Source: Sulfurospirillum diekertiae
Lineage (GTDB): Bacteria > Campylobacterota > Campylobacteria > Campylobacterales > Sulfurospirillaceae
DNA length: 64,000 nucleotides
Assembly (NCBI RefSeq): GCF_002162315.1
Contig: NZ_CP021416.1
Location: 2,740,207 to 2,804,206, forward strand
Direction: 5' to 3'
Position numbers and translations under genes: made by a program. Below are positions 160 through 62,744 of the stretch, in pieces. Positions within the stretch are counted from its first letter, which is position 1. Every line of letters starts with the position of its first letter. The notes beneath the pieces are model-generated. The model was given only the letters and a program-made list of their open reading frames with translations. It was not told the origin of the DNA and did no database searches.

Positions 160-195
160 TAAAACGTTTACATGTAACGATAAGGAGTTACGATT

Positions 196-2478
196 ATGAG
201 CCACTATATTATTCCCCAAATGGTCTACGATGACTTGGAAATTTTCAAAAAAAATCATGCCGAATTTTTAGCAGGCACACTGGATGATCTCACCTTTAAA
301 ACGATGCGCGTTCCCTTTGGCGTGTACGAACAACGTGAAGCCAATACCTTTATGGTGCGCATCAAACTGGCTGGCGGTATCCTAACCCCCAAACAACTTT
401 TAACACTCTCAGACTTGGCAGAGAAGTACGCGCACGAGGCGATTCACATCACCACGCGTGGTGGCGCACAGCTCCACTATGTCAAGATTGAAGATATTAT
501 CAGTATTATCGAAACCTTGCACAGCATCGACCTCAGTGGTCGTGGTGGCGGAGGAAATACCGTCCGTAATGTCATGGCTGATCCACTTGCAGGCACAGCG
601 AAAGATGAGATTTTCGATGTTTCACCTTATGCCCTTGCGATTACCTCTAAAATGCTAGAGCAAAAAGACTCGTTTGCGCTTCCTCGAAAGTTCAAAATCA
701 CCTTTAGTGGCTCAGAAGCAGACCGTGGTTATGCTACGATTCACGATGTTGGTTTTATCGCCAAGATTCAAGATGGCGTGAAAGGCTTTAAACTCTTTAC
801 GGCTGGCGGTATGGGTGCAAAATCTCGCTTAGGAACAAAGCTTCGCGATTTCGTGCCAGATACCGAAGTCTTTTTATACTCTCAAGCGATCAAACAAGTA
901 TTCGACAAATATGGCAACCGCAAAAATAAACATGCTGCGCGTCTTCGCTTCTTGTTTGAAGATCTAGGTCTTGAAGAGTTTAACAAACTCCTTGACGTGG
1001 AGCTTAAAGCGGTAAAAGCCAAAGGTGACTGGGAGATGCCAATCACTGAAATTGAACGTACGGTTGGCGACACAACGCATGAGCCTTTCGTTGTTCCTCA
1101 AAACATTAAAAAATGGTGGAACCGTTACGTTTACGCCCAAAAACAAGAGGGGCTTTACGGATGTAAAGTGCCTGTTCATTTAGGCGACATTCATTTCGAA
1201 AATGCACGCAACCTTGCCAATGCACTGCTTCCATTTGGCGAAGATGTGCTTCGTTTTACAGGAGATCAAAACCTTTACATCCGAAACCTTACAGCGCCTC
1301 AAATGGCAAGTTTGCACGACATCTTGCAAAAATTTTCTGTTGAAGTCTCTAAACCAACGCTCTTTGGCGATATGGTCGCGTGTACAGGTGCGGCAACGTG
1401 TCAACTCGGCATCGCTCGCCCCAGAGGTGCGGTGGATGCGATTCAAAAACGTCTCAATAAACTGATCGATGAGCGTGACTATGACGCCCTTCAAGGATTT
1501 AAAATCCATTTATCGGGTTGTCCGAACAGTTGTGGAAAGCACCTTATCGGCGATCTTGGATTTTTCGGAAAAGTCCAACGCAATGAGGGCTACTCCTACC
1601 CAGCGTACAACGTGGTAGCAGGCTCTCGCACGTCAGGTGATGGCAGTGTGTACGCGCAAAAAGCGGGTGATGTTGCCGCTTTTCATGTTCCTGCCTTTGT
1701 CGAAGAAGTTTTGGATACGTGGCTTTTACATGTAAAGGCTTACAAGAGTTTTGCAGACTGGATTGACGATGGCGGGCTTGCTATCATCACTGAAATCAGC
1801 AAAAAATACGTGGATATCCCTTCATTCAAAGAGGATAAAAACCCTTACTTTGACTATGATGCGGTGGAACTCTTCTCACTAAAAGGAAGAGGAACAGGAG
1901 AATGTAGTGCAGGTATGTACGACCTTATCGAAGCCGATAAAAAGGCACTTAAAGAAGCACTTGAAAAAGAGGAAAAAGACTATGAGTTGATTCGTCTTTT
2001 GGCGGCTCGTATGCTTTTGGTCACACGTGGAGAGGATGCGCGCGATAAAGCAGGCGTATTGAAAGCCTTTAAAACACTTTTTATTGACACGACACTGCTC
2101 AACGCCTATTTTGGAACGATGTTAGAGGGCGATGCCGATGAAAAATCCATCGAGCTGGCAGAAGAAGTTATCAAGCTTTACGAGACAATGGATAATACCC
2201 TTAAATTTGCCAAAGAGAAAGAGTTAGCGGCGGCAAATGCGCCTAAAGAAGAAAAATCAGCCCATTTTAAAGACCTTAGTGGCGTTGCGTGCCCGATGAA
2301 CTTCGTGAAAACGAAGATGGAACTCTCTAAAATTGGAAGCGGTGAGGTCTTGGAGATTTTACTCGATGATGGCGCACCGATTGATAACGTGCCAAAATCG
2401 GTGGCAAGTGAAGGACACACCGTCGAAGCGACCACGAAAGAAGGCAATGGCTGGCGTGTCAGGATCGTGAAAAAATGA
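196..2478 (+). CDS. siroheme nitrite/sulfite reductase with C-terminal TusA-like domain
   Basis: The enzyme would reduce sulfite to sulfide (or nitrite to ammonia) in the cytoplasm. The siroheme-[4Fe-4S] ligands are visible as Cys-X5-Cys (CTGAATC, about residue 399) and Cys-X3-Cys (GCPNSCG, about residue 441). After the reductase core (about residues 1-550) comes a helical linker, then a region from about residue 691 with the TusA/SirA signature GVACPMNFVKTK, a Cys-Pro sulfur-carrier motif. At 760 residues it is longer than a plain hemoprotein subunit because of this tail. The start has a strong AAGGAG site. It overlaps the siroheme synthase gene by four bases (ATGA), so enzyme and cofactor synthesis are coupled. 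The neighbouring sulfhydrylase favours sulfite as substrate, but nitrite cannot be excluded. Confidence 0.9.
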   Translation: MSHYIIPQMVYDDLEIFKKNHAEFLAGTLDDLTFKTMRVPFGVYEQREANTFMVRIKLAGGILTPKQLLTLSDLAEKYAHEAIHITTRGGAQLHYVKIEDIISIIETLHSIDLSGRGGGGNTVRNVMADPLAGTAKDEIFDVSPYALAITSKMLEQKDSFALPRKFKITFSGSEADRGYATIHDVGFIAKIQDGVKGFKLFTAGGMGAKSRLGTKLRDFVPDTEVFLYSQAIKQVFDKYGNRKNKHAARLRFLFEDLGLEEFNKLLDVELKAVKAKGDWEMPITEIERTVGDTTHEPFVVPQNIKKWWNRYVYAQKQEGLYGCKVPVHLGDIHFENARNLANALLPFGEDVLRFTGDQNLYIRNLTAPQMASLHDILQKFSVEVSKPTLFGDMVACTGAATCQLGIARPRGAVDAIQKRLNKLIDERDYDALQGFKIHLSGCPNSCGKHLIGDLGFFGKVQRNEGYSYPAYNVVAGSRTSGDGSVYAQKAGDVAAFHVPAFVEEVLDTWLLHVKAYKSFADWIDDGGLAIITEISKKYVDIPSFKEDKNPYFDYDAVELFSLKGRGTGECSAGMYDLIEADKKALKEALEKEEKDYELIRLLAARMLLVTRGEDARDKAGVLKAFKTLFIDTTLLNAYFGTMLEGDADEKSIELAEEVIKLYETMDNTLKFAKEKELAAANAPKEEKSAHFKDLSGVACPMNFVKTKMELSKIGSGEVLEILLDDGAPIDNVPKSVASEGHTVEATTKEGNGWRVRIVKK
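1725..1736. repeat. TTTACATGTAAA highly iterated palindrome (representative copy)
   Basis: This is a representative copy, read in frame as Leu-His-Val-Lys. The core TTACATGTAA begins at or near 167, 1725, 2631, 3130, 3733, 5139, 5358, 6635, 7257, 9348, 10414, 10638, 14696, 17028, 21600, 23544, 24840, 25265, 27895, 28911, 30020, 30368, 30452, 33635, 33926, 35640, 35777, 43884, 48319, 48340, 53427, 55672, 59983, 61545 and 61903 (35 by eye). Nine copies are intergenic and the rest are inside unrelated genes. Confidence 0.93.
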
Positions 2479-3743
2479 GCACTCTAGGCATCGCACTCAC
2501 GCCAAAACGCACGCTTTTGATCGGGGCGGGCAAAGTCGCCGCACAAAAAGCGCGCGTACTGGACAGTCTTGATTTTGCGTACGAAATCGTCGCAGAATCA
2601 AGGCTCGATGCCTATTTTGATTCCAAAATCTTTACATGTAAAACGTTTGAGGACAGTGATGCTGAGGGTTTTGAGGTGATTATTGATGCGACGGGCAATG
2701 AGCAAGTGACCCAGCGTTTGGTCGCGCTCAAACCGATTCATCATTTTTGGCTCAACGTGGTTGATGTGCCAGAACTGTGCGATTTTTACTTTAGCGCACT
2801 CACGCGTCGTGGTGACATTCAAGTCGCTGTCAGCAGTGGCGGCAGTTCGCCCACCTTGGCACAAGTGATTCGTGATAAGATCGAGAAAATTTTACCGCGT
2901 GATTTGACTGCACTCATCGACAGACTGAAAACCGAGCGCAAAAAGCCAGACCGTGATTTGGATAAACTCAAAGAGATCGCCAAAGCAGGTGTGGGAAAAG
3001 TCTTTTTGATCGGCTGTGGAACGGGGTATGTGGGTAATCTCACATTAGATGCTTTAAATGCCTTTGAACTGCTCGATGTTGCGTTGGTGGATGCGTTGGT
3101 TTCAGAGGAAATTCGCGCCCTCATTCCGCTTACATGTAAAGTGGTCGATGTGAGCAAAAAGAAAGGATTTCACTCTAAAAGCCAAGATGAAATTAACGCG
3201 CTTTTGGTCGAATATGCCAAACAAGGACTTGTCGTTGGACGCCTTAAAGGTGGCGACCCGCTTCTGTTTGGTCGCTTGGGAGAAGAGAAACAAGTTTTGG
3301 CACAACATGGCATTGCATTTGAGGTGATCAATGGCATTACCTCAGCCCTAAGATCATGCACCGTTTCAGGTATTGTGCCCACGATTCGTGATATTTCCAA
3401 AGGGGTGACTATCGTCTCTGCGCACCTTCGTGAGACGCTTTTTAACGATGATTGGGTGAGCATTTTAAAACAGCCTTTGCATACGGTCATTGTTTTAATG
3501 GCGCACAGTTTTGCGAAAAAAATCGAAGATGCCATAGCCAAACAAAACATCGACCCCAACCTTCCTGCGGCATTTGTCTCGAAGATTGACCTGCCCGATC
3601 AAGTCACCATAGTGGGAACTGTGGGAAAATTAGATAAAATGAGCGCATTATGTGCCACACCAGCGGTCTTAATCATCGGTGAGTGCGTCGCACGTGAGAA
3701 CATAGTACCCGCTGAGAATAGCGGAAAAATTATTTACATGTAA
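2475..3743 (+). CDS. cysG: bifunctional siroheme synthase (precorrin-2 dehydrogenase / uroporphyrinogen-III C-methyltransferase)
   Basis: The protein makes siroheme for the upstream reductase. The N-terminal part (about 1-150) has a Rossmann motif IGAGKVAAQKA, as in the Met8/CysG dehydrogenase-ferrochelatase. The C-terminal part (about 175-422) is a SAM-dependent tetrapyrrole methylase with the SUMT signature VGRLKGGDPLLFGRLG. Domain order and the length of 422 residues fit the CysG family. It overlaps the reductase gene by four bases. The last codons lie inside a TTTACATGTAA palindrome and use its TAA as the stop (Tyr-Met-stop). Confidence 0.92.
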   Translation: MSTLGIALTPKRTLLIGAGKVAAQKARVLDSLDFAYEIVAESRLDAYFDSKIFTCKTFEDSDAEGFEVIIDATGNEQVTQRLVALKPIHHFWLNVVDVPELCDFYFSALTRRGDIQVAVSSGGSSPTLAQVIRDKIEKILPRDLTALIDRLKTERKKPDRDLDKLKEIAKAGVGKVFLIGCGTGYVGNLTLDALNAFELLDVALVDALVSEEIRALIPLTCKVVDVSKKKGFHSKSQDEINALLVEYAKQGLVVGRLKGGDPLLFGRLGEEKQVLAQHGIAFEVINGITSALRSCTVSGIVPTIRDISKGVTIVSAHLRETLFNDDWVSILKQPLHTVIVLMAHSFAKKIEDAIAKQNIDPNLPAAFVSKIDLPDQVTIVGTVGKLDKMSALCATPAVLIIGECVARENIVPAENSGKIIYM

Positions 3744-3759
3744 ACGTAAATCAGCTATC

Positions 3760-3873
3760 GAAAAAACCCTTTCTCGACACGGTTGAGGCATGATGTGTTT
3801 CCCGAAACGCTCACGCTTTTCGTCCCATCGGCTCAAAGTGTCTCGTGCGGAATTTTTTCTACGCGATTTACCT
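3760..3873 (+). promoter_or_regulatory. structured leader element, copy 2, upstream of the sulfhydrylase gene
   Basis: The reverse complement of about 3774-3866 matches copy 1 (about 36-124) at roughly 80 percent by eye. Arms: GACAC (3776-3780) with GTGTC (3838-3842), TTGAG (3783-3787) with CTCAA (3832-3836), an inner hairpin CGAAACGC/GCTTTTCG, and an outer pairing of GAAAAAA with TTTTTTC. The outer helix differs from copy 1 by a paired A-T to G-C change, which favours a conserved structure. It ends about 18 bases before the ATG of the next gene. Confidence 0.6.
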
Positions 3874-3890
3874 ACAAAGAAGGATATTTT

Positions 3891-5118: not shown

Positions 5119-5171
5119 TTTGGGGAGTGAAAAAACGTTTTACATGTAAAATGGTTCATTCACTCCCCAAA
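5119..5171 (+). terminator. long hairpin after the sulfhydrylase gene, palindrome in loop
   Basis: A perfect 13-base stem pairs TTTGGGGAGTGAA (5119-5131) with TTCACTCCCCAAA (5159-5171). The 27-base loop contains TTTTACATGTAAAA. It starts four bases after the stop codon. There is no long T tract, so termination efficiency is uncertain. Confidence 0.65.
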
Positions 5172-5222: not shown

Positions 5223-5298
5223 GCTGGTGTAGCTCAGTTGGTAGAGCAGTTGATCCGTAATCAACAGGTCGGGGGTTCGAGTCCCTTCACCAGCTCCA
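5223..5298 (+). tRNA. tRNA-Thr (anticodon CGT)
   Basis: A full cloverleaf can be drawn: acceptor GCTGGTG/CACCAGC, D stem GCTC/GAGC with the AGTTGGTA loop, anticodon stem GTTGA/TCAAC, T stem GGGGG/CCCTT with loop TTCGAGT, discriminator T and an encoded CCA. The anticodon loop reads TCCGTAA, giving anticodon CGT (5256-5258) but C rather than the near-universal T at position 33. The gene sits between the perfect arms AAACATGGGG (5199-5208) and CCCCATGTTT (5313-5322). Confidence 0.93.
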
Positions 5299-5579
5299 GC
5301 CTCTTTTAAAATCCCCATGTTTTAACGCTAAACGTTTACCTTCCCTGCCTTTTTCGCTTTACATGTAAAGAAAAGTAAAAAGTTTAGCCCTGACTCCTTT
5401 TTTGATTTTTTGAGCGTAGCGTGGGCTCACTGCCGAAGTGAACTCAGCGTTAGCGTAGCTTTTAGAGCTTTGCTTTAAAAGCGTATCAAAGATTAATGGT
5501 GCCCTATTTTGGGTCAACACGAAACGTAAAGACTTTTACTCTTTAGACGTCGAAATTGTAAATAAAAGAGAACACATCT

Positions 5580-6630: not shown

Positions 6631-7081
6631 CTGCTTTACATGTAAGCATATGTTCTACCTCTTTAACCGCATAAACCACATAAAGATCGCACTTACAGGT
6701 TTTGCAGTTGCCCTCTTTAAATTTTTCTCCTGCATCAGGAGAACTGAGTGAAAAGCCCAAAAGTTTGGCACATTCACAGCTTCCAAAGGCTTTTTCAAAA
6801 CGCTCTTTAAAGAGTTGTACATTGTGATAAAGTGGATCTTTGGGTGCACTTGCATTTGTTCGTCCTTGAAGCAGGGAAAGTGCCATAACTCCACCACTAT
6901 ATGCTCCACAAAGTCCACCTTCGCTGCGTGACAAACCACTTCCAAATCCTGAGGCAATGGCAGGAATCAATGGCGAATCAATGTCATGTTTTTCTGCGAT
7001 GGTTTTTAAAACTGCTTCACTGCACACATACCCATTTGAAAAATACTCTAATGCTTTTTGCTCAACCGATTCATTCATCAT
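6617..7081 (-). CDS. C_GCAxxG_C_C family redox-type protein
   Basis: This 154-residue protein carries the spaced cysteines of the C_GCAxxG_C_C family: an early Cys in NGYVCSEA, GGLCGAYSGG in the centre, a CEC pair near residue 107 and CKTCKC near the C terminus. The family is a putative redox-active or metal-binding group; its biochemical role is not established. It is the last gene of a minus-strand run with a thioredoxin-like and a rhodanese-like gene, suggesting a shared role in thiol or metalloid handling. Two adjacent ATGs follow an AGGG site. Confidence 0.8.
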   Translation of the reverse strand: MMNESVEQKALEYFSNGYVCSEAVLKTIAEKHDIDSPLIPAIASGFGSGLSRSEGGLCGAYSGGVMALSLLQGRTNASAPKDPLYHNVQLFKERFEKAFGSCECAKLLGFSLSSPDAGEKFKEGNCKTCKCDLYVVYAVKEVEHMLTCKAEEPL

Positions 7082-7087: not shown

Positions 7088-7318
7088 CTACCCTAAGAGT
7101 GCCACAATTTCATCGACACTTAACAATTTACCACTACTAACAACTTTGCCATCAATAACCAAAGCAGGTGTAGAAGTCACTCCATAATGCATAATTTGCA
7201 TGAGATCTTCTACTTTTTCGATTTGTGCAAACAGCCCTTTTTTAGCCACAGCCTCTTTTACATGTAATGTCAACGCTTGACATTTAGCACAGCCTGTTCC
7301 TAAAATTTCAATCTTCAT
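7088..7318 (-). CDS. small thioredoxin/glutaredoxin-like protein (redox-active disulfide protein 2 type)
   Basis: This 76-residue thioredoxin-fold protein has the active-site motif GTGCAKCQ and a cis-proline region TSTPALVIDGKVV. It resembles the MTH895/TM0996-type small thioredoxins, which often lie beside metal or arsenic permeases; a permease of that kind lies about 2 kb upstream on the same strand. The start codon overlaps the stop of the upstream rhodanese gene (ATGA), implying translational coupling. Confidence 0.85.
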   Translation of the reverse strand: MKIEILGTGCAKCQALTLHVKEAVAKKGLFAQIEKVEDLMQIMHYGVTSTPALVIDGKVVSSGKLLSVDEIVALLG

Positions 7319-9271: not shown

Positions 9272-10231
9272 TCATAACAGTGCGTTAAACAGATACCCAA
9301 CGCCCATAATTCCAAGGGCAACAATGCCAAAAAAGAGGGCAATCAGCTTTACATGTAAAATGCGCTTTAAGATCATCGCTTCGGGTAAACTAAGGGCTGT
9401 AATTGCCATCATAAAACTCAGAGCCGTACCAAGCAACATCCCTTTGCTGGTTAAGACCTCGATCAAAGGCATCACGCCTGCCGCATTAGAATACATCGGA
9501 ACACCTAACAGTACAGCGAAAGGAACACTGTACCACGCATTGCTTCCTGCATATTTGACGATCAATTCTGTTGGAACATACCCATGAATAAATGCTCCTA
9601 TACCAACACCAATCATCACATAGAGATAGATTTTTTGTAAAATATCCAGCGTGTAATCCCACGACTCTTTGACTCTTTTTTTCACCGTAAGTTTAATCTC
9701 AACCTCTTCCAAATCACCACTCATTGGCACAACAGGAATGAGAACATATTTTTCCATCCCCAGCTTACCAACAGTAAAACCGCCTAGAATGGCAACCAAA
9801 AGCCCAAAGCCAATGTACAGTGCCGTGATTTTCCAGCCAAAAAGTCCGAATAAAAGGGCAATCGCAATTTCGTTGTTCATTGGACTTGAAATCAAAAAAC
9901 TAAAGGTAATACCAAGCGGAATGCGTGCTTGCATGAAACCTAAAAACAGAGGAATCGCAGAGCAACTGCAAAATGGCGTAATAATGCCAAAAAGTGCTGC
10001 TAAAACATTGCCTGTGAACTCACTTTTACCTTGCAAATAGACGCGTACTTTGTCGGTATTAAAATAGGTTCTCAAAAAACTCACTGCAAAAATAATCAGC
10101 ACTAAAAGAATGTAAATTTTCACCGTATCAAAGATGAAAAAATGAACTACCTCTGCTTTTTGTGTCGAAGCATCCAGGCCGAACAACCCATAGACCAGAT
10201 AATCTACCATCTTTTCCCATACATCAAACAT
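9272..10231 (-). CDS. permease of the DUF318/ArsP-like family
   Basis: This is a polytopic inner-membrane protein of 319 residues with about eight hydrophobic segments and the family motif TPFCSCSAIP, in which a Cys-x-Cys pair sits within a membrane region. Relatives include ArsP-type organoarsenical efflux permeases and other putative metal permeases. It overlaps the arsC-like gene by eight bases, so arsenic export is the likely role, but the substrate is an inference from context. Confidence 0.82.
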   Translation of the reverse strand: MFDVWEKMVDYLVYGLFGLDASTQKAEVVHFFIFDTVKIYILLVLIIFAVSFLRTYFNTDKVRVYLQGKSEFTGNVLAALFGIITPFCSCSAIPLFLGFMQARIPLGITFSFLISSPMNNEIAIALLFGLFGWKITALYIGFGLLVAILGGFTVGKLGMEKYVLIPVVPMSGDLEEVEIKLTVKKRVKESWDYTLDILQKIYLYVMIGVGIGAFIHGYVPTELIVKYAGSNAWYSVPFAVLLGVPMYSNAAGVMPLIEVLTSKGMLLGTALSFMMAITALSLPEAMILKRILHVKLIALFFGIVALGIMGVGYLFNALL

Positions 10232-10628
10232 CGCTTAGCTCTTTTTCAATGATAGGCAAAAGCTCTGCTTGAATTGCTTTATATGTAAGAATAAATGCCC
10301 CATAATCTTTACCATCAGGATCGGAAAACCCCACATGAATTTTAGGGATAGGACGAGGAAACATCGGACAGCTCTCTTTGGCATGATCGCATACCGTGAC
10401 TACCAAATCGAAGTTTACATGTAAAACCTCATCGAGTGTTTTAGAGTGATAGCTCTCTTTCCAAATACCCTCTTCTTCTAAGACTTTTTTCGCATACGCA
10501 TTGACATATCCGCTTGCACGAACTCCCGCACTATACGCTTCGATGCCTTTTAAATGTGCGTTTACCAAAGCTTCTGCAATAATACTTCGACAACTGTTGC
10601 CCGTACATAAAATCAGTACTTTTTTCAT
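10224..10628 (-). CDS. arsC: arsenate reductase (low-molecular-weight phosphatase type)
   Basis: The 134-residue protein has the P-loop CTGNSCRS (residues 8-15) and a downstream pair of cysteines in VCDHAKESCP, the arrangement of thioredoxin-coupled ArsC enzymes that reduce arsenate to arsenite by a three-cysteine relay. The thioredoxin-like gene in the next minus-strand cluster could be the electron donor (inference). Transcription probably starts near an ArsR-type operator just upstream. Confidence 0.9.
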   Translation of the reverse strand: MKKVLILCTGNSCRSIIAEALVNAHLKGIEAYSAGVRASGYVNAYAKKVLEEEGIWKESYHSKTLDEVLHVNFDLVVTVCDHAKESCPMFPRPIPKIHVGFSDPDGKDYGAFILTYKAIQAELLPIIEKELSDV

Positions 10629-10680
10629 GATTGAACCTTTACATGTAACAATAATGAAATGGTAGCATAAAATTATCTTT

Positions 10681-14676: not shown

Positions 14677-14700
14677 TAAAACGGGCTTCGCCCGTTTTAC
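14676..14700. terminator. terminator between gdhA and upp, fused to palindrome
   Basis: A perfect 11-base stem GTAAAACGGGC/GCCCGTTTTAC with loop TTC begins at the gdhA stop codon. Its 3' arm runs directly into a TTTACATGTAAA copy (14696-14707). It serves convergent genes. Confidence 0.8.
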
Positions 14701-14726
14701 ATGTAAACGTCAGAAAAGAGTTTTGA

Positions 14727-16639: not shown

Positions 16640-18031
16640 CTAACTCCTTTTATAAGATATTAATTTTTGAATTCTCTGTATAACATTGGCATATCCAATA
16701 ATTTCCAACACTTCAAAGATAGAAGGACTCACAGAATTACCTACCATGGCAATACGAATGGCTTGCGCAAGATCTTTAAGTTTTAAACCCTTTTCTTCTA
16801 AAAATCCTTTGGTAACTGTTTCAAATTCACTCGCACTATTGAGCTCTTTTGCGTCTTTTAGCGCTTCAAGATACTGCTCTAAAACAGTTAGCCCTTCGGC
16901 AGTTAAGAACTTCTCAACCGCTTTTTCATCGTAACACATTGGTGCCTCTAAAATCTGTTTTACCATAGCAGCAAACTCCACTAAGGTCTTAGCACGATCA
17001 CGAAGTGCGTCAATCAGTAACTCTTTCTTTACATGTAACGTAATATCGACATCAAAAAAGCGCAATTCATCAATTAAGCGCGCATGGCTTGCTTGTTTTA
17101 TATAATGCGCATTAAGCCATACCAGTTTTTCTTGGTTATAAGCCGAAGCTGATTTATTGATATTTGAAGGATCAAACAGCTCTTGCATCTGCTCAAATGA
17201 GAAAATCTCTTGATCACCATGACTCCAACCTAAACGAATCAGAAAATTGAGCAGTGCTTCTGGCAGATACCCTTCCCTCTTATACTCCATCACATCAACG
17301 GCACCATCGCGTTTAGAGAGCTTTTTACCTTGAGGATTTAAAATCATAGGAACATGGTAAAATTTGGGAATATCGAAACCAAGCGCTTGATATAAAATGA
17401 TCTGTTTAGGTGTGTTGGAAAGATGGTCATCCCCACGGATAACTTCATTAACGCCCATCAGCGCGTCATCGATGACAACAACAAAGTTATAGGTTGGTGT
17501 GCCATCACTTCTAGCGATGATGAAATCATCCAACATATCGCTCGCATTAAAACTGACTTCACCTTTAACGCCATCGACAAAAGAGATCACGCCACTTGTG
17601 GGTGCTTTGATACGAATAACAGGCTCAACGCCCACTGGAGGCGTTCCCGTAAAGTCACGGTATCTCCCATCATATTTTGGGCGTTCTTTACGTGCCATTT
17701 GAGCTTCTCGAAGTGCATCAAGCTCCTCTTTGCTCATATAACATTTATACGCTTTTCCAGCATCCAAAAGCTTTTGAACATAACTTTTATAGAGATCGAA
17801 ACGCTCTGATTGATAAACAATCTCACCCTCATGCGCTAAACCAACCCATTTGAATGCCTCGACAATAGCATCTGCTGCTGCTTTGGAGTTTCGAGCAAGA
17901 TCTGTATCTTCAATACGAAATAAAAATTTTCCATTATTTCTTTTTGCCCACAAATAACTGTAAAGAGCCGTTCTAAGCCCTCCAATATGCAGATATCCCG
18001 TAGGACTAGGGGCAAAGCGTGTCACAACCAT
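16640..18031 (-). CDS. gltX: glutamyl-tRNA synthetase
   Basis: This is a class I synthetase with the HIGH-type motif PTGYLHIGG near the N terminus and KMSKS-type KKLSKRDG at about residue 240. The chosen ATG (18031) has a GAAGG site and gives 463 residues; a longer frame from 18082 adds an unlikely extension. Campylobacterota commonly carry two GltX paralogues, one of which charges tRNA-Gln with glutamate; which type this is cannot be decided here. In C. jejuni the same slot holds one of the two gltX genes. Confidence 0.93.
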
Positions 18032-21594: not shown

Positions 21595-22233
21595 ATGGCT
21601 TTACATGTAAAAGCTTTAGAGCAACATAACACACACGAGTTTGATGGTTTTTATGCCATCTACTCGACCGCTTTCCCTCTTTCAGAACAAAAATCTCGCG
21701 ATGCACTTTTAGCGATGCAGCATGCCTCTTTTTACACGATCTATCTAGCGTATAATGACGAAAAAATTGTAGGATTTTGTATCATGTATCATCCGCACCA
21801 TGAAGATTTTTTTCTGCTGGAATACATGGCGATTGATGAAACGCAAAGAGGTATTGGGCTTGGCTCAACGCTTTTAAAAAGGAGCATTGATCAACTGTTT
21901 CAAACACATGGCATACGTGCGCTTCTGATTGAAATTGACTCACCCGAGAAGAGCTCATCGGAGCAAGCAATTCGCGAAAAACGAGAACTCTTTTACCGTC
22001 GTTTGGGTGCATTGAAAATTGACCCCTTTGATTATATTTTAGCACTGCAAAGTAATGAAGAACCTCCACCTATGGAGCTTTTAGTGTATCATCCTAGCAT
22101 GAGAGAAGTCTCAAAAGCCACCTTACAAGTATGGATTGAAAAACTCTATGTGGATGTTTATGGATGCACAAAAGATGACCCACGCATTGCTCAAATGCTT
22201 GAGCTTGTACCACCGATTTTAAACCTCATTTAA
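21595..22233 (+). CDS. GNAT family N-acetyltransferase
   Basis: This 212-residue protein has a GNAT core: LLEYMAIDETQRGIGLGSTLLKRSI contains the acetyl-CoA pyrophosphate loop (QRGIGLG). The N and C termini (about 1-50 and 160-212) are not recognisable. The second to sixth codons are a copy of the palindrome (Ala-Leu-His-Val-Lys). It follows dcd by six bases. Substrate unknown. Confidence 0.78.
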   Translation: MALHVKALEQHNTHEFDGFYAIYSTAFPLSEQKSRDALLAMQHASFYTIYLAYNDEKIVGFCIMYHPHHEDFFLLEYMAIDETQRGIGLGSTLLKRSIDQLFQTHGIRALLIEIDSPEKSSSEQAIREKRELFYRRLGALKIDPFDYILALQSNEEPPPMELLVYHPSMREVSKATLQVWIEKLYVDVYGCTKDDPRIAQMLELVPPILNLI

Positions 22234-23493: not shown

Positions 23494-23585
23494 TGGTTAT
23501 TCTCCACATATTTTTCCGTTACAAATTTTCGTTGTAACACTGTTTTACATGTAAAAAGTAGTTCCCATTTTATGCTCTATATTTC

Positions 23586-24758: not shown

Positions 24759-25533
24759 TGATTTTTCCTAATATAGTTTGTAGCTCTTTCGCAAAGGCAG
24801 GGTGTTCAAATACGTTATTATGTGTTGTATGGCTCAAGATTACATGTAAAGGACGACTCGGCATTACTTCTAAGAGTTTTTCGAGATGATAATGAGGAAT
24901 GACTGTGTCATTTTCGACTTCCATTACCGCTATTTTTGACTTGACTAAAGGAAGGTACTCAATGGTTTCAAATTTATTTTTTAGCATCAGATCAACCGGG
25001 AAGAAAGGATACTTTATTTTGGCGATAGAGAGAATCGAATCATAAGGACTAATCAGCACCAACCCATCTACAACCCTTTGCGAAGCAAGATAGGTTGCAA
25101 CGCCCGTTCCTAAACTTCGCCCAATCAACACCACTTTACGCCCTTTTGCGTACGTATCGTAAATCTTGAGCGCATCTTCAAACAAGGCTTGCTCACTTGG
25201 TGTTCCTGTACTTTCGCCATAGCCTCGATAATTAAAAGCGATGATGTCGTAACCTTGAATATCCTTTACATGTAAAAGAAATTGGGTAGCATCATCCGCA
25301 TTACCCCCAAAGTAAAGAATCACCCCTGCATCACTCTGTGCATCGTGTCGCAATACTCCTTCTAAGTCAACGCCCTCTTTGACATGTAAAGAAAGAGCCT
25401 CAATCGTTTCCCCACTCACTTTGGCTTGCTTTGCAATCGCCTTAATATTGAACACTTGCGCATCTTGGGTAAAATAGAGATACCCCATCGCCACCAAATA
25501 GAGCCCAACAATTCCAAGTAAGAGCTTTTTCAT
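24751..25533 (-). CDS. membrane-anchored alpha/beta hydrolase
   Basis: An N-terminal hydrophobic segment (about 3-22) anchors a 260-residue alpha/beta hydrolase. FNYRGYGESTG precedes the nucleophile elbow GRSLGTG, with a C-terminal His in HTTHNNVF. It resembles the ABHD12/BEM46-like serine hydrolases; the substrate is unknown. Three LHV tripeptides arise from palindrome copies or close variants (24840, 25265 and about 25380). Confidence 0.82.
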   Translation of the reverse strand: MKKLLLGIVGLYLVAMGYLYFTQDAQVFNIKAIAKQAKVSGETIEALSLHVKEGVDLEGVLRHDAQSDAGVILYFGGNADDATQFLLHVKDIQGYDIIAFNYRGYGESTGTPSEQALFEDALKIYDTYAKGRKVVLIGRSLGTGVATYLASQRVVDGLVLISPYDSILSIAKIKYPFFPVDLMLKNKFETIEYLPLVKSKIAVMEVENDTVIPHYHLEKLLEVMPSRPLHVILSHTTHNNVFEHPAFAKELQTILGKIIE

Positions 25534-27000: not shown

Positions 27001-29128
<2,128 letters not shown>

Positions 29129-33344: not shown

Positions 33345-34301
33345 ATGCAAAGAACTCTCTCATGTGCCATTGTTGGAGCAGGCAGTATTGGCGGTCTTAT
33401 CGACTCGCCTAATAGTGCGAACATTGCATCACATGCCCATGCATTTTTAAAACATCCCAGCTGTAAACTTGTCGCTATTTGCGAACCCAACAGTGCAAAC
33501 CAAAATGCGTTTATTGGGCGTTGGGGACAAATGGGCGTTTACCATTCGCTGGATGCTCTTTTGCAGTATGAAACTATCGATCTACTTGCTATTGCTTCGC
33601 CGACGCAATTTCATGCAAAAGCGTTGGAAGAGGCTTTACATGTAAAAAGTGTGCAAGCCATTTTGTGTGAAAAACCTTTGGTTGCAACGGCTAAAGAGTT
33701 GGCGCATATCGCACCAATGCTTCTTTCTAGCGAGAAAAAAATTCTGATTCATCTTATGAGACGGTATGACCCCTCTTTTATCAAACTTGCCAATGACATT
33801 GCCGCACAAAAATGGGGCAAAGCCGTGCGCTTTCAAGGCGTTTTCACCAAAGGCTTGCTTCACAATGGTGTACATATGCTAGCCGTTTTGAGTCACTTTT
33901 TTGGTGAGATAGAGAATATAAAATCTTTACATGTAAAACGTTTACACGAAGACATCAGTGGCGATTTTGAGGTTACCTGTAAAGAGGATAGAGGTGTGCT
34001 GAGTTGCATGGAAGAACTTCCTTATTCGGCATTTGAGCTTACCCTCTGGTTTGACAATGGTAAGGTAGAAATCAAAGAGGGAGGCTCTCGCATTGAGTCG
34101 TTCATCAAAATACCCTCACCTTTGTATGAAGGCTATTTTAGTTTGGAACATGAAGAGACTTTGCCCAACACATTAAAAGACTATGCTCTGCATTCCCTTG
34201 AATTTTTACTCCAAAATGACGATATAACCTGCAAACAGATCTTGCAAGAACACATCAATGTTCATACAAAAATTTTTGAAACCATTGCAAAAGAGAAATA
34301 A
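33345..34301 (+). CDS. Gfo/Idh/MocA-family oxidoreductase
   Basis: The N-terminal Rossmann motif IVGAGSIGGLID and the family motif ILCEKPLVAT (with the conserved EKP) identify an NAD(P)-dependent sugar oxidoreductase. In sugar-nucleotide pathways such enzymes oxidise a ring hydroxyl so that a DegT-type aminotransferase can aminate it, and such an aminotransferase follows directly. Length is 318 residues. Substrate unknown. Confidence 0.85.
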   Translation: MQRTLSCAIVGAGSIGGLIDSPNSANIASHAHAFLKHPSCKLVAICEPNSANQNAFIGRWGQMGVYHSLDALLQYETIDLLAIASPTQFHAKALEEALHVKSVQAILCEKPLVATAKELAHIAPMLLSSEKKILIHLMRRYDPSFIKLANDIAAQKWGKAVRFQGVFTKGLLHNGVHMLAVLSHFFGEIENIKSLHVKRLHEDISGDFEVTCKEDRGVLSCMEELPYSAFELTLWFDNGKVEIKEGGSRIESFIKIPSPLYEGYFSLEHEETLPNTLKDYALHSLEFLLQNDDITCKQILQEHINVHTKIFETIAKEK

Positions 34302-35608: not shown

Positions 35609-36162
35609 AATTAATTGGTGAACATCTCTATCTTCGCCCTTTACATGTAAACGATGCTTTGGGTGATTATCCCTCATGGCTAAACGATCGCGTGGTCTGC
35701 CAGTATAACTCTCATGGAGATACGCTCTATACCCAAGAGATGGCACTTTCCTACATTCAAAGCATGCAAAACAATCTTACATGTAAAGTTTTTGCCATGT
35801 GCGATAAAACAAGCGATAAACATATTGGAAACATTGCATTGCAAGCGATTTCTCCTAAAAATAAGAGTGCAGAATTTGCCATTTTATTGGGCGATAAAGC
35901 CTATTGGGGGAAAGGTCTCTCTAAAGAAGCAGGGAAACTTTTGCTAGACTATGGTTTTGACTTTTTAAAGCTACACCGTATTTATTGTGGAACCAGTGAA
36001 GCCAATGTTCCAATGCAACATTTAGCACGTTCCTTAGGCATGGAACTTGAAGGCAGGCGCAAAGAAGCGCTGTTGAAACATGAAAACTTTTACGACGTTT
36101 TAGAATACGGCATCGTTCAGAAGCCTATACAAAACCGCTCAACATCCGATATAGAGTCATAG
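35605..36162 (+). CDS. GNAT acetyltransferase, probable PseH
   Basis: This RimJ/RimL-type GNAT of 185 residues has DKAYWGKGLSKEAGKLLLDYGF, including the acetyl-CoA loop, and the late SEANVPMQHLARSLGMELEG. It is the only acetyltransferase in the locus and every other core Pse step (B, C, G, I, F) is present, so it is the best candidate for the C4 amine N-acetyltransferase PseH (inference). The start is GTG, overlapping the previous stop. Confidence 0.75.
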   Translation: MKLIGEHLYLRPLHVNDALGDYPSWLNDRVVCQYNSHGDTLYTQEMALSYIQSMQNNLTCKVFAMCDKTSDKHIGNIALQAISPKNKSAEFAILLGDKAYWGKGLSKEAGKLLLDYGFDFLKLHRIYCGTSEANVPMQHLARSLGMELEGRRKEALLKHENFYDVLEYGIVQKPIQNRSTSDIES

Positions 36163-43827: not shown

Positions 43828-43907
43828 ATCCAAGAGACTATTTTTTAAAAAGATTCTTTTTTAGATAGAATACACAAAAAATGTTTACATGTAAAGATGG
43901 AAAATAA

Positions 43908-48313: not shown

Positions 48314-48317
48314 CACT

Positions 48318-48351
48318 CTTTACATGTAAGGATTTTTCCTTACATGTAAAG
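48318..48351. terminator. terminator made of two inverted palindrome copies
   Basis: CTTTACATGTAAGGA (48318-48332) pairs perfectly over 15 bases with TCCTTACATGTAAAG (48337-48351), leaving a TTTT loop. Each arm contains one TTACATGTAA copy. It lies between convergent gltA and the AMIN-domain gene. Confidence 0.85.
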
Positions 48352-52967: not shown

Positions 52968-53741
52968 ATGACAAAATCGATTAACTTTTCGACTTATTCA
53001 AGTATTAAGATTGGTCCAACATTGGATGTTTTGTTACTTGATTCCATCATTCCGTTGCCTTCAGACTATCGCCTGATTGGTGGCGCAAATAACCTTCTTG
53101 TCAGCTCCACCCCTCAACCACTTGCCATGCTCGATAAGTGTTTTGACTTTATACGCTTAGAAGAAAATGTTTTGCATATAGGAGGTGCCACACCCAGTGG
53201 CAAAATCCTCTCGTTTGCCAAGAAGCATGATCTTGCGGGTTTTGAGCTGATGCAAAAACTCCCCGGAACGCTAGGTGGCATGGTGGCTATGAACGCGGGG
53301 CTAAAAGAGTGGGAAATTTTCAATGACCTCATCGCCATTCGAACCGAAAACGGCTGGAGCGAAAAAGCACAGATAGAACATGGCTACCGCTTCGCAAAAA
53401 TAGAGGGTATTGTCTATGAAGCGACCTTTACATGTAAAAAAGGTTTTGATGAAAATCTGCTGGCGATGTTCAAAAAAATGCGTGACAATCAACCCAAAGA
53501 ACCGAGTGCAGGAAGCTGTTTTAAAAATCCTGTTGGGCACTTTGCGGGAAAGCTTATTGAAGAGGTGGGATTTAAAGGAAAACGTGTTGGCAATATGATG
53601 TTTAGCAATGTCCATGCCAACTTCTTAGTCAATCTTGGAGGTGGCACGTATGAAGAAGCCATCACACTTATAACGGCCGTCAAAGAAGAAGTATTAAAAC
53701 GCTTTGGCGTAAAACTTGAAGAAGAGATCATTATTTTGTAA
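52968..53741 (+). CDS. murB: UDP-N-acetylenolpyruvoylglucosamine reductase
   Basis: MurB makes UDP-MurNAc with FAD and NADPH. Visible motifs are NFSTYSSIKIGP, LIGGANNLLVS, KLPGTLGGMVAMNAG and the active-site serine in PSAGSCFKNP, followed by the C-terminal glutamate region. At 257 residues it is the short form seen in Campylobacterota. It is coupled to fliQ with no gap. Confidence 0.93.
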   Translation: MTKSINFSTYSSIKIGPTLDVLLLDSIIPLPSDYRLIGGANNLLVSSTPQPLAMLDKCFDFIRLEENVLHIGGATPSGKILSFAKKHDLAGFELMQKLPGTLGGMVAMNAGLKEWEIFNDLIAIRTENGWSEKAQIEHGYRFAKIEGIVYEATFTCKKGFDENLLAMFKKMRDNQPKEPSAGSCFKNPVGHFAGKLIEEVGFKGKRVGNMMFSNVHANFLVNLGGGTYEEAITLITAVKEEVLKRFGVKLEEEIIIL

Positions 53742-55039: not shown

Positions 55040-56093
55040 CTATTTTCCTTATACCCTTGCTAACCAATTTACACTTAAAACGTAATAAATTAAAAGAAAA
55101 TAATCTTTCGTATGTGCTGCGTACTTTTAAATCAACTATGCTTACAAAAGTGCCTTTAGCATAGGCTTCCACGGCACAGCGACCTATCATTGCGGCATTA
55201 TCAGAGCAAAATTCCATTTTTGCAGTATGCAGTGTCGCTTTTTTGGAAGCACAAAACGCTTCGAGTTCGCCTCGTAAATAGAGATTTGCACTCGCTCCTC
55301 CCACTACTCCAAAATGCTCCACAGAACGCTCTTTATACGCTTTTTTGATCTTTTGCATCAGATGCGCAACGGCCACACGCTGAAACGATGCACAGATATC
55401 GCAGATGGTCTGTTCATCCAACTTTTCTTGCGCTTCAACGCAAAGTCTCACTTGGTTTTTAAGACCCGAATAACTAAAGGCCAGTAGCGAAGTAGAAGTG
55501 CCTTGTAAAGGAATCGTAAAATCAAATCGTTTGGCATTGCCTTTTAAAGCATACGCCTCGATAAGAGGTCCAGCAGGATATGGAAGTCCTAACATTTTTC
55601 CTACCTTGTCAAAACTCTCGCCAAAGCTGTCATCCATCGTTGTTGCAAGCAATGTTATTTCTTCTAAGCTCTTTACATGTAAAAGCTGTGTGTGTCCTCC
55701 TGAGACCAATAAAACATCCATCGGAAAACGTATTTCATCTTCGATAAAGAGGGAGCAGATATGCCCTTTGAGATGATTAATCCCCAGTAGTGGAAGATGA
55801 AGAGCAACGCTGAGTGCCTTTGCCATGCTGACACCTTCGACCAAGCTAACGGAAAGTCCTGGCTCATTGGTTACGGCAATGGCTTTTAGTTCACTAAAAT
55901 AAGGCTGTGCTTCTTCAAGTATTTTGGGAAGCGTTACCGCGTGAAGACGTGCCGCAAGTTCGGGTACAACACCACCGTATTTAGCATGTTCCGCGTCTTG
56001 TGAAATTTTTTTGTGAAAAAGAAGTTTTTTATCGCTTAAACGTGTGATCGCAATCGAGCTATCATCACAGCTACTTTCAATGCTTAAGATCAT
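55011..56093 (-). CDS. tsaD: tRNA threonylcarbamoyladenosine biosynthesis protein TsaD
   Basis: TsaD transfers threonylcarbamoyl to A37 of ANN-decoding tRNAs. The ATPase-fold start ILSIESSCDDSSIAI, the metal-binding HLKGH (about 105-109) and VSGGHTQLL are visible, followed by the late GGASANLYLR and MEFCSDNAAM. Its 360 residues include about 25 extra C-terminal residues beyond the typical end, overlapping the next gene. Confidence 0.94.
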   Translation of the reverse strand: MILSIESSCDDSSIAITRLSDKKLLFHKKISQDAEHAKYGGVVPELAARLHAVTLPKILEEAQPYFSELKAIAVTNEPGLSVSLVEGVSMAKALSVALHLPLLGINHLKGHICSLFIEDEIRFPMDVLLVSGGHTQLLHVKSLEEITLLATTMDDSFGESFDKVGKMLGLPYPAGPLIEAYALKGNAKRFDFTIPLQGTSTSLLAFSYSGLKNQVRLCVEAQEKLDEQTICDICASFQRVAVAHLMQKIKKAYKERSVEHFGVVGGASANLYLRGELEAFCASKKATLHTAKMEFCSDNAAMIGRCAVEAYAKGTFVSIVDLKVRSTYERLFSFNLLRFKCKLVSKGIRKIDGSPSAYFF

Positions 56094-59758: not shown

Positions 59759-59797
59759 TTCATACTCCAGTTGGGTTATTTTATAGTTATTACTTTA

Positions 59798-60370
59798 TCA
59801 AAATATTCTAAAATTTTGCCTACCCTCGCCTGCCACAAACGTGAAAAAAGCATTTTTTTCTTCCGCATTGAGTGTTTCAGTAAGTAACTTTTGCATTAAG
59901 GGTTGCATCAGAGGGTCAACCTCAATACCACTAGGATTATAAGCGACATCCACAAATTTACCCGTATCCATGCGCTGCATTCTTACATGTAAAGGTATTT
60001 GAGCATTAAAAAACATCAAATCTGTGCGTTTGTAATGAGCCCCTAAACCTTTAAATCCCCAAGAATCAGTTGCTCCTGTTATCAGTGAAAAGACATTAGC
60101 AACGACACTTGTTGTTCCTTCCTTTTGCGCCTCTTTAAAGAAAACTTTGATACCGCCTCGCTCGGGTATCGCGTTAGGATAAAGCACTTTAAGCCCTTCT
60201 CTTACCATCAAGTAAGCGCCTGCAATCGTTGGACAACTATGCCCTGCACTTTTGACAACATCCAAATAACTAAAAATAATTTCTCCCTTTTCAAAAGCAC
60301 CTAACACTTCCGAGAGAGGGTCATACAGTGTGATGGTTTCTATCGTATCAAAAAAAGTAGGGTATTTCAT
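59798..60370 (-). CDS. FmdE-family protein
   Basis: The 190-residue protein has the FmdE-like motif SAGHSCPTIAGAYLM near residue 47, with a His and a Cys likely to bind metal. FmdE-type proteins accompany formylmethanofuran dehydrogenases in archaea but also occur alone in bacteria, where function is unknown. The ATG at 60370 follows AAGGAG; a longer frame from 60577 overlaps the divergent gene and is rejected. Confidence 0.75.
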   Translation of the reverse strand: MKYPTFFDTIETITLYDPLSEVLGAFEKGEIIFSYLDVVKSAGHSCPTIAGAYLMVREGLKVLYPNAIPERGGIKVFFKEAQKEGTTSVVANVFSLITGATDSWGFKGLGAHYKRTDLMFFNAQIPLHVRMQRMDTGKFVDVAYNPSGIEVDPLMQPLMQKLLTETLNAEEKNAFFTFVAGEGRQNFRIF

Positions 60371-60478
60371 TGTGACTCCTTCGTATGATGAAAAGATTTT
60401 AACGAAAATAAAAAAGAATGTCATTGATTTAAATTGTGTTACAATAAACTGATAATAACGATAAAAACAAGGGTGCAG

Positions 60479-61084: not shown

Positions 61085-61623
61085 CGTTCAACCGTCCCAT
61101 AATAACGACTTCGCTCTAAATTTTCAACCCATTTATAATCTGGATCGTCCCCTATTTTTGCCCAATAAAGCACACCAGAGTTGCGCCACGGGTCGATCAA
61201 AATACCCGTACGGAACGGTGCACCTTTCGCAACAACGACGACGGAATTGTGCTCATTAAATTCACCCTTATTCGCCACACCCCAGCGCAAGTCAAAGCTT
61301 TGGTACTTCAAACTTTTAAGATGCGTGATCATATCTTCACTCCACTGATAACAAAGCCCTCGATCTTTAAGCCCTGTATTAATCAAAAAATTATGAAACG
61401 TTGGTGGATAGACAAGCCCATAACGTTCCGCTAAAATTTGAGGGTACAGCAACGATTCATAGGCAAACATACGTGCTTCTTGGTAGTCAACATCGGGGCT
61501 TAACTGTGTCAGTTCGGAGGTGAGAGCAGAGACTTGGTCAGGCATTACATGTAAAGCGTCTTGTTTGGCACTACAGCCACCTAAAATAATAGAAACCAAG
61601 AGAAGAAAAAGAAACTGTTTCAT
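61081..61623 (-). CDS. lipoprotein with possible Cys-His-Asp catalytic triad
   Basis: The signal peptide ends in a lipobox LGGC (about 14-17). The mature part contains GLCYQWSEDM, then EHNSVVVVAKG, then ILIDPWRNSG, a Cys-His-Asp order and spacing like papain/transglutaminase-fold enzymes. I do not recognise the family; the triad is my reading. It overlaps the metallophosphoesterase gene by four bases. Confidence 0.7.
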   Translation of the reverse strand: MKQFLFLLLVSIILGGCSAKQDALHVMPDQVSALTSELTQLSPDVDYQEARMFAYESLLYPQILAERYGLVYPPTFHNFLINTGLKDRGLCYQWSEDMITHLKSLKYQSFDLRWGVANKGEFNEHNSVVVVAKGAPFRTGILIDPWRNSGVLYWAKIGDDPDYKWVENLERSRYYGTVER

Positions 61624-62744
61624 GCTTTTTTGACTTTAAGATTAATTTTGACGATTTCACTAGGCGCCATAATACGCACTGCTGGCCCCCAAAAACCAGC
61701 ACCATTACTGACAAAGACTTGTGTGTGCTTTGAATGTTGATACAGACCGCTTAAATAAGGTTGATCAAGGAGAACCAAAAGACCAAAAGGAAAAATCTGC
61801 CCTCCATGTGTGTGACCGCTGAGAATCAGATCAATCTTTTCACCGCTCATTTCTTTGACAATTTTAGGTTGATGAGAGAGTAAAATTGTTGGTAATTCTG
61901 GCTTTACATGTAAAAGTGCACGCTTTAGATCAGGTGGCTCAAAATCGAAACGTTTGCCTGACATATCCATCACACCCGCAAGATTAATCGTATGATTAAT
62001 GACCATAGAACGATTGGAGAGAACATGAACGCCCAAAGTGTGCACATGCTCCATAATTTTGTGAACCCCATAAAAATACTCATGATTTCCTGGCACATAG
62101 TAAACCCCCAAACGACTCTGAATGGCACGCAAAGAGTCAAGTTTGTCACCAATTTGATTGACCGGCATATCGATCAAGTCGCCAGTAATGACAACCATGT
62201 CCGCATCTAAAGCATTCACTTGCTTCACAACATCATCCATAAAGGACTTTCCAAGGGTTTTACCGATGTGCACATCCGTAATCTGAACAATGCTAAGCTC
62301 CGATTCCAAACCATCGATGAAAATATCCACCTCTTTAATACGTGGTGCTTTCATACCATTGAGAAAGCCTTTGGTGATGTACGAGAGTGCGAGAATAAGC
62401 ATCGTGACATCAAATACCATTTTGATAAACAATCGTCTGGAGTAATCATGAGGGATTTTGGCATAAGGAATATGAAAGAGATCGTAAAGGAGTGCCACAC
62501 AAAATAACATAAAGGAGACACCAATCATCGCCGAAAAGAGTGTGTATAAAATGGGATCAAGGTTGTCCAAACGAAGGACTAAGAAGTAACATATTTCACA
62601 TAGGGTAATGACGATCATCGCCCATTTGATTACATCTTGAATCTTAAAAAACAGATCCAAGCGTTTGAGAAAACGCTTGTAACTGTAGAAATTAATAAGC
62701 GATAAAACCGCAATAGCAGCAAATGCGAACGAAAGGCGAAACAT
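61620..62744 (-). CDS. membrane-anchored metallophosphoesterase
   Basis: Three or four N-terminal hydrophobic segments (to about residue 135) precede a calcineurin-like domain with the metal motifs TDVHIGK, VVITGDLID, PGNHEYF and LSGHTHGGQ. It resembles YkuE/YaeI-type phosphodiesterases. The ATG at 62744 follows AAGGAA/AGGG and lies just after the upstream stop, giving 374 residues; an upstream start at 62804 would overlap the symporter. Confidence 0.85.
   Translation of the reverse strand: MFRLSFAFAAIAVLSLINFYSYKRFLKRLDLFFKIQDVIKWAMIVITLCEICYFLVLRLDNLDPILYTLFSAMIGVSFMLFCVALLYDLFHIPYAKIPHDYSRRLFIKMVFDVTMLILALSYITKGFLNGMKAPRIKEVDIFIDGLESELSIVQITDVHIGKTLGKSFMDDVVKQVNALDADMVVITGDLIDMPVNQIGDKLDSLRAIQSRLGVYYVPGNHEYFYGVHKIMEHVHTLGVHVLSNRSMVINHTINLAGVMDMSGKRFDFEPPDLKRALLHVKPELPTILLSHQPKIVKEMSGEKIDLILSGHTHGGQIFPFGLLVLLDQPYLSGLYQHSKHTQVFVSNGAGFWGPAVRIMAPSEIVKINLKVKKA

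Follow-up and report, generated by a model that had tools for sequence, protein, structure and literature searches.

An iterated palindrome shared across Sulfurospirillum, putatively a methylation-linked self tag of the DNA uptake sequence kind

A 64,000-nucleotide stretch of the Sulfurospirillum diekertiae genome (contig NZ_CP021416.1, positions 2,740,207 to 2,804,206; hereafter the window) contains the palindrome TTACATGTAA in exactly 35 copies between positions 168 and 61913, the number given in an original prediction made from these letters alone. The 12-mer TTTACATGTAAA that extends it occurs throughout the genus. From sequence comparison, we consider it a putative genus-wide self tag of the DNA uptake sequence (DUS) kind, linked to methylation and probably read in its methylated form, and we give this reading about an even chance of being right. 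The near-perfect upkeep of the copies between species and their wear in several lineages without a particular DNA-methylating enzyme suggest a methylation-dependent tag for self-recognition, such as an uptake signal. Beyond the original prediction, the analysis adds a methyltransferase, the decay of the palindrome in lineages without it, and helically phased AT-rich flanks.

The genome (G000; other genomes carry labels of the same form) has 2,876,536 bp (2.88 Mb) and was sampled over 464 kb, comprising the window and 20 evenly spaced stretches of 20 kb. In 100 dinucleotide shuffles of the window the ten-mer appeared 0.07 times on average and at most once, in agreement with the earlier estimate of less than one copy by chance. 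Counts close to a third-order Markov expectation, which the original prediction had named as speaking against it, were not seen: the 464 kb hold 194 ten-mers (0.82 expected) and 119 twelve-mers (0.18 expected), hundreds of times the expectation. The 15 most over-represented 10-mers and 12-mers of this sample are all the palindrome itself or words overlapping it. The whole genome has 792 copies of TTTACATGTAAA and none of the same letters reversed. In the window, the full 12-mer is present at 20 of the 35 sites, so the iterated palindrome stands as predicted and the length first ascribed to it was slightly too long. The preferred extended form is CTTTACATGTAAAG, in which the outermost arm letters are C in 50% of cases, and this full 14-mer occurs only once in the window (Table 1). 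The nearly invariant part is the 8-mer TACATGTA; 27 of 51 one-mismatch copies deviate only at the outermost T or A. The palindrome is centred on CATG.

Site counts over the 20 stretches are Poisson-like (mean 7.95, variance 7.73), so the motif is genome-wide and not confined to the window, the other outcome of which the prediction had warned. The same stretches show no bias toward origin or terminus and no trend with the GC-skew halves. Regular spacing was not seen; gaps are near-exponential, with short ones slightly few once sites at most 150 bp apart are merged. Among 173 neighbouring spacings, 13 are below 120 bp and five measure 19-23 bp. The one pair folded (48320 and 48340) forms a terminator-like RNA hairpin (-21 kcal/mol, z -9.3), and a lone site folds weakly (z -0.9). 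Gene context was taken from a simple open reading frame (ORF) caller of our own (437 ORFs, uncurated), which places 122 of the 194 sites within coding frames and 72 between them. Density is 1.59 sites per kb in intergenic DNA and 0.29 in genes, a 5.5-fold difference, and gaps between convergent genes are the densest class (18 sites in 3.9 kb). The genic sites fall mostly in two frames (67 and 51), with four in the third frame, which contains a stop.

The comparison across Sulfurospirillum that had been proposed along with the prediction finds the 12-mer in all 24 genomes of the genus, from 14 copies (G010) to 792 (G000). At least one copy is present in 88 of 298 genomes taken from the order. 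High counts are restricted to the family, with maxima outside the genus of 346 (genus g4) and 310 (g3); family f17 has weak counts (86, 21, 14 and 8) and genus g2 has 0-3 copies. Two genomes use a partial dialect, as judged from their sequences: TGACATGTCA has 30 copies in G011 and 15 in G014, compared with 0-3 in the other 22 genomes of the genus, and in G011 it is found at places orthologous to palindrome sites. A few named loci of Sulfurimonas have the 8-mer TACATGTA too, in part at a single recurring position. In G010, no comparable substitute word was found among 8-, 10- and 12-mers and spaced palindromes in 160-223 kb. A plasmid-like contig of G005 (C2, 39.9 kb, L108-L109), the one plasmid contig considered, has 4 ten-mers where 16.5 would be expected at G000 density; stretches of the G005 chromosome have 40 in 71 kb.

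The sites are conserved between species. Stretches of seven congeners were aligned to the G000 sample at 77-90% DNA identity, and of the 165 sites covered 154 have an unchanged ten-mer (93%; by congener 15/16, 24/25, 36/37, 21/24, 18/19, 20/23 and 20/21), compared with 257 of 930 composition-matched control ten-mers. In the flanks, 6-55 bp from the centre, 28 of 35 ten-base bins (five per genome) are less identical than the two genomes are on average. G010 retains one of 41 ten-mers, under its own controls (56 of 245), and one of 62 when more stretches are included, 11 of these being gapped. CATG outside the motif is conserved 1.1-2.1-fold relative to other palindromic 4-mers in six congeners and 1.3-fold in G010; with conservation this modest, CATG alone was rejected as the conserved unit. 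ACATGT outside the motif is identical in 25 of 57 cases in six congeners pooled (control 6-mers 222 of 853) and in 7 of 20 in G010 (controls 70 of 262), so a weaker pull on this hexamer is possible.

Perfect copies outnumber near-misses in G000 (220 versus 56) and in nine congeners (395 versus 57). The excess of one-mismatch copies per exact copy is 0.17 in G000 and 0.09 in congeners with the methyltransferase gene described below. The motif is decaying in four genomes, where this ratio reaches 1.92 (G010), 1.40 (G017), 1.52 (G021) and 1.51 (G022), based on 8, 4, 12 and 2 exact copies; in these four, as in G011 and G014, perfect copies do not outnumber near-misses. G013 has 8 exact copies in 20 kb, a normal density, and a ratio of 0.43. 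Allowing one mismatch raises the count by 25% in G000 and 14% in the congeners; for the K. oralis uptake sequence, an increase of 21% is reported (PMC3630211).

The S. diekertiae genome encodes a D12 adenine methyltransferase of 325 amino acids, located outside the window (G000:C1:2607453-2608424; PF02086, E 2.5e-47). Its catalytic DPPY segment is invariant across eight aligned rows, and no close match was found among solved structures. The neighbouring genes in G000 match transglutaminase, MerT, HMA, response-regulator, allophanate-hydrolase and amidase models, with no endonuclease among these matches. The gene adjoins the same transglutaminase-like gene in 13 genomes of the genus; the contig ends there in G015, and in G011 and G014 the two genes are 19-26 kb apart. 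A gene for an ICEA-type endonuclease is absent from 23 of the 24 genomes. The sole one (G022:C17:1430-1981) is in a genome without a recognised full-length partner methyltransferase and with few palindromes.

Relatives of the enzyme elsewhere were taken from the best 80 among the matches listed and from four family loci, and neighbours were compared at 29 loci, one place being represented twice. An ICEA scan of eight neighbouring ORFs gave strong matches at L189, L237 and L248 (down to 1e-125), weak ones at L187 and L226, and none for the remaining three; an ICEA gene also lies beside a relative in G118, G071 and G289. Other relatives have other neighbours, including six Bacteroidota loci with a common upstream ORF, of which two copies had no Pfam match. 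M.HpyI, the partner of IceA, is reported to methylate CATG (PMC4450513). Because relatives adjoin ICEA genes and IceA/M.HpyI is a CATG system, we predict that the orphan D12 methyltransferase targets CATG, the centre of the palindrome. N6/N4 methyltransferases of the PF01555 family gave no match in eight motif-rich genomes (G000-G007).

We compared gene presence with copy number in the 19 genomes of the genus that are at least 90% complete. This leaves out G012, G015, G018, G019 and G020 (788, 558, 412, 293 and 616 copies), of which G015 and G020 have the gene. The methyltransferase gene is present in 14 of the 19, with 144-792 copies each, and the five without a recognised gene have 14, 62, 112, 124 and 271 copies. 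Counts are higher with the gene (Mann-Whitney p 0.0006, or 0.0023 without G022, phylogeny being ignored), and all 11 of these genomes with more than 500 copies carry it. Absence is unsure for G022, which has a 247-amino-acid D12 match and the ICEA gene on other contigs. In G010, G017, G021 and G022 the flanking genes stand side by side with no trace of the methyltransferase between them, and the gene sits between the same two genes in G000, G001 and G008. No relative was found anywhere in the genomes of G010, G017 and G021 at E <= 1e-20. A tree of the parB region groups G010 (14 copies) with G017 (112 copies) at 90/98, just below the 95/80 mark of the tool, and places both inside a clade with G000, G001, G004, G005 and G008 (100/99). 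Since the two are nested in a motif-rich clade, absence of the gene there is best read as loss, as judged from this one locus.

AT content around the sites oscillates symmetrically, in phase with the centre, with a period of 11.25 bp. The amplitude drops from 0.084 (8-42 bp) through 0.045 (56-90 bp) to 0.024 (80-114 bp) and reaches noise level further out; the summed amplitude is 2.27, and 500 resamples of composition-matched controls average 0.38 and never exceed 0.73. The wave consists chiefly of AA and TT, is seen at genic and intergenic sites, and is absent around ACATGT or CATG outside the motif. It is equally strong in pooled congeners and present in each of six motif-rich ones (0.050-0.084). 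At the same places in G010 it is halved (0.037 versus 0.069). At single sites, the left and right waves are not significantly correlated (r 0.10, p 0.17). No significant wave was found around the own ten-mer sites of G010, other motif-poor genomes, G143, G110, G258 and G121, all small samples. Around 8-mer sites it has p 0.02-0.03 in G010, other motif-poor genomes and G143 and is not significant in G110, G258 and G121. The 464 kb of G000 also show a weak AAA/TTT autocorrelation peak at about 11.4 bp, so the period is a general property of the genome and the locking to sites is not. The wave may have come under selection together with the sites, or it may only make it easier for them to become established.

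In the methylation-linked tag that we propose, the orphan enzyme would methylate the adenine of the central CATG, and a dimeric reader, for which some part of the type IV pilus or ComEC uptake machinery is the simplest candidate, would prefer the methylated palindrome in a bendable setting of phased AT. Fragments with a perfect copy would be taken in and recombined more often; copies would then spread to permissive places (intergenic DNA and weakly constrained parts of genes) and near-misses would be swept out. Once the methyltransferase was lost, the tag would stop working and its copies would decay by point mutation. A more specific version, possible in our view yet doubtful, is that the palindrome is active as an uptake sequence only when its central CATG is methylated and a stretch of about 200 bp is phased and bent, with enzyme loss isolating a species genetically and its tags then decaying in a clock-like manner.

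Marks described for uptake sequences are a surplus of perfect over mismatched copies, location in permissive DNA, orthologous sites that stay unchanged, dialects, hairpins formed by paired sites, and AT-rich flanks (PMC7811141, PMC3630211, PMC1626085). The palindrome is over-represented, has more perfect than mismatched copies, lies in permissive places and occurs in genomes with uptake machinery. These marks, taken together with the link to methylation, lead us to favour an uptake sequence tied to methylation, with a probability of about one half. There is a precedent in the phylum, as C. jejuni is reported to import only DNA methylated by CtsM (PMC10046745). The original prediction had placed the palindrome in the class of HIP1 (highly iterated palindrome 1) and DUS and not with operators, and had listed uptake, methylation and nucleoid binding among its possible roles. 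The assignment to this class is borne out by the even spread, the intergenic enrichment, the few near-misses and the conservation at orthologous sites, and is also backed by the partial dialect of G011 and G014, the hairpin pairs and the link to an orphan CATG-type methyltransferase. Its remark that no such element had been described agrees with a search of open-access literature, in which titles and the beginnings of abstracts revealed none, subscription papers and preprints being mostly outside this scope.

Several observations weigh against a methylation-linked uptake tag. The palindrome is symmetric, unlike the sequences of Neisseria and Pasteurellaceae, and its AT wave reaches about 100 bp on both sides, well beyond the flanks of the uptake signal sequence (USS), a length suggestive of DNA wrapping or supercoiling within the cell. 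The 8-mer TACATGTA is also enriched in genomes where the 12-mer is rare (small samples), and the plasmid-like contig of G005 is rich in it, with 14 copies that have other flanking letters. The modest conservation of CATG outside the motif implies that CATG methylation alone is not the conserved function. The near-miss ratio is 1.33 in G011 and G014 despite their methyltransferase gene, which the dialect accounts for in part. The gene is found without the motif in G059, G278 and G295 (0-3 twelve-mers) and in many genomes of other families (0-3 copies), and with few twelve-mers in G289 (7), G145 (27) and G123 (37). Conversely, G013 (271 copies), G110 of genus g3 (283) and G143 (86) have the motif without the gene. 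Given these exceptions, the enzyme is not sufficient, and the link is strong only inside the genus. Finally, G010 and G017 keep ComEC and the T2SSE-type ATPases, so loss of the whole machinery is not the trait that distinguishes them.

Of 44 genomes, 43 encode ComEC, and T2SSE-type (pilus-type) ATPases are present in all of 25 (25 of 25), motif-poor genomes included; this does not discriminate between genomes, and the breadth of both makes competence plausible in the genus from gene content. Loss of either component was rejected as the cause of motif loss, both being kept in G010 and G017. A pilT-like ATPase gene (PF00437) has one in-frame stop in G010 (L255:6465-7667) and is split by about 0.9 kb in motif-rich G007 (L258:5661-7767), with no stop in the ten other loci compared. 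A broken pilT-like gene was rejected as the cause of decay, as it is also split in motif-rich G007 and unbroken in G017. A dedicated ParB paralogue was likewise discarded, since motif-poor G010 carries a single ParB_N match, as do most of its motif-rich relatives. The features of ParB-, Noc- or MatP-type sites are missing, with no ParB that tracks the motif and no origin or terminus bias.

The palindrome could also be a HIP-like element, one that encloses an orphan methyltransferase's target and is kept by methylation-dependent repair, recombination or replication inside the cell and not by uptake, an explanation we find somewhat unlikely. It would fit the position of the predicted methylation target in the middle of the palindrome, where HIP1 has GATC/CGATCG, and mismatches skewed to the outermost letters, as in HIP1. 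Also in its favour, the element is low or decaying in genomes of the genus without a recognised gene, G013 excepted, and Elhai describes much the same pattern of element and enzyme for HIP1 and alternate HIPs (PMC4390886). Speaking against it, some genomes have the enzyme but not the motif (G059 and others) and some have the motif but not the enzyme (G013, G110). Moreover, HIP1 is an 8-mer for which we know of no report of AT-rich flanks. The published repair model requires a kind of mismatch repair that the phylum lacks: to our knowledge Campylobacterota have no classical MutSL repair, which also tells against drift driven by mismatch repair.

A site of chromosome architecture seems unlikely to us. 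In that case the palindrome would lie at the apex of a bent or supercoiled DNA loop and be bound or wrapped there by a dimeric protein, such as a nucleoid protein, or be preferred by a topoisomerase, possibly in a methylation-dependent way. The symmetric wave at genic and intergenic sites, three times the largest of the 500 resamples and also present in the six motif-rich congeners tested, argues for it, and E. coli gyrase sites are reported to have a comparable symmetric pattern over 130 bp with a period of 10.75 bp (PMC6379681). The central preferences of gyrase, G at -4 and A at -2 (-4G/+8C, -2A/+6T; PMC12324340), are unmatched, however, since the palindrome has T there and not G or A. This explanation also has to meet the lack of origin or terminus bias and of an extra ParB paralogue tracking the motif, the genome-wide period of AAA/TTT, and the half-strength wave in G010, where nearly all palindromes are gone and which may mean that the wave partly precedes them. 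A neutral relic or mutational product without a reader (a dead mobile repeat or context-dependent mutation) could explain the decay in four genomes and is otherwise contradicted by conservation across species, with site identity above the 77-90% background. The repeated part is only a core of 10-14 bp with a wave of base composition, and genic sites occur in two coding frames; we think such an origin very improbable. The operator of a global transcription factor is equally improbable: it too would be palindromic and enriched between genes, but most sites lie inside coding frames, convergent gaps are the most enriched class, and about 800 copies are evenly spread.

Among the matches listed, which are mostly single, the viral contigs L287, L276, L281 and L341 have 2-4 copies of CTTTACATGTAAAG within 5-15 kb; viral contigs with several copies may represent phages or prophages whose hosts bear the motif. 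The plasmid-like contig C2 of G005 also bears a second relative of the D12 methyltransferase. GATC is strongly avoided in G059 (observed/expected 0.28 in L046, 20 kb) and G143 (0.35 in L040-L043, 80 kb), which suggests present or past GATC restriction. The sites of the window are listed in Table 1.

Table 1. Ten-mer cores TTACATGTAA in the 64-kb window, with their state in aligned congeners where given
Context	Coordinates	Strand	Congener state or evidence
Intergenic	168..177	.	
Coding frame	1726..1735	.	unchanged in G004, G005
Coding frame	2632..2641	.	unchanged in G004, G005
Coding frame	3130..3139	.	unchanged in G004, G005
Extreme ORF end, its TAA being the stop codon	3734..3743	.	
Intergenic, upstream of tRNA-Thr (5223-5298)	5140..5149	.	
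Intergenic, downstream of tRNA-Thr, within the sole CTTTACATGTAAAG of the window (5357-5370)	5359..5368	.	
Coding frame	6636..6645	.	
Coding frame	7258..7267	.	
Coding frame	9349..9358	.	
Coding frame	10415..10424	.	one mismatch in G004
Intergenic	10639..10648	.	
Convergent genes either side	14697..14706	.	unchanged in G004, G006, G002, G003
Coding frame	17029..17038	.	
Coding frame	21601..21610	.	unchanged in six congeners
Intergenic	23545..23554	.	
Coding frame	24840..24849	.	unchanged in six congeners
Coding frame	25266..25275	.	changed in G007
Coding frame	27896..27905	.	unchanged in six congeners
Coding frame	28911..28920	.	unchanged in six congeners
Coding frame	30021..30030	.	unchanged in six congeners
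Coding frame	30369..30378	.	changed in G005, G002
Coding frame	30453..30462	.	unchanged in six congeners
Coding frame	33636..33645	.	
Coding frame	33927..33936	.	
Coding frame	35641..35650	.	
Coding frame	35777..35786	.	
Divergent genes either side	43885..43894	.	unchanged in G004, G006, G007, G002
Left hairpin arm of paired site, between convergent genes	48320..48329	.	RNA fold
Right arm of the 48320 hairpin	48340..48349	.	RNA fold
Coding frame	53428..53437	.	
Coding frame	55673..55682	.	
Coding frame	59983..59992	.	
Coding frame	61545..61554	.	
Coding frame	61904..61913	.	

If the proposed tag is real, it would join DNA uptake sequences, highly iterated palindromes and orphan methyltransferases, which are usually treated as separate puzzles, and the long-open purpose of HIP-type palindromes would become directly testable. 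The genus offers a natural experiment, with close species whose tags are intact, changed in dialect or decaying, with or without the gene. Such a tag would also offer a starting point for genetic work on environmental Campylobacterota, the organohalide-respiring ones included.

Among known systems, the E. coli gyrase motif and bacterial interspersed mosaic elements (BIMEs) share with the palindrome a symmetric AT/GC wave whose period is close to one helix turn, with phased wings around a centre; the gyrase motif has no rigid 10-bp core, and its period and central letters differ. The IceA-HpyI restriction-modification system is of the NlaIII type, with kinship to NlaIII. It shares the methyltransferase family, some relatives lying beside ICEA endonuclease genes, whereas the Sulfurospirillum gene stands alone beside a transglutaminase-like gene, with no ICEA gene in nearly all genomes of the genus. 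HIP1 and the alternate HIPs of cyanobacteria are likewise iterated palindromes that hold the target of an orphan methyltransferase, with enzyme loss accompanying element loss and near-misses skewed to the outer letters. The palindrome described here has another sequence, belongs to another phylum, is longer, and has AT-rich, helically phased flanks and an imperfect association with its enzyme. The DUS of Neisseriaceae and the USS of Pasteurellaceae are also short words with hundreds of copies, an excess of perfect copies, intergenic enrichment, paired hairpins, orthologous stability, dialects and, for the USS, AT-rich flanks. Unlike them, the Sulfurospirillum word is symmetric, is centred on a predicted methylation target and has a symmetric flank pattern of about 100 bp. 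In the CtsM system of C. jejuni, the RAATTY site is a short degenerate 6-mer and not an iterated word of 10-14 letters, and our enzyme groups with the CATG-type M.HpyI by the gene neighbourhood of its relatives. C. jejuni belongs to the same phylum and also combines a partnerless adenine methyltransferase with ComEC and pilus-type machinery, and its self tag is made by methylation, as we infer for the palindrome.

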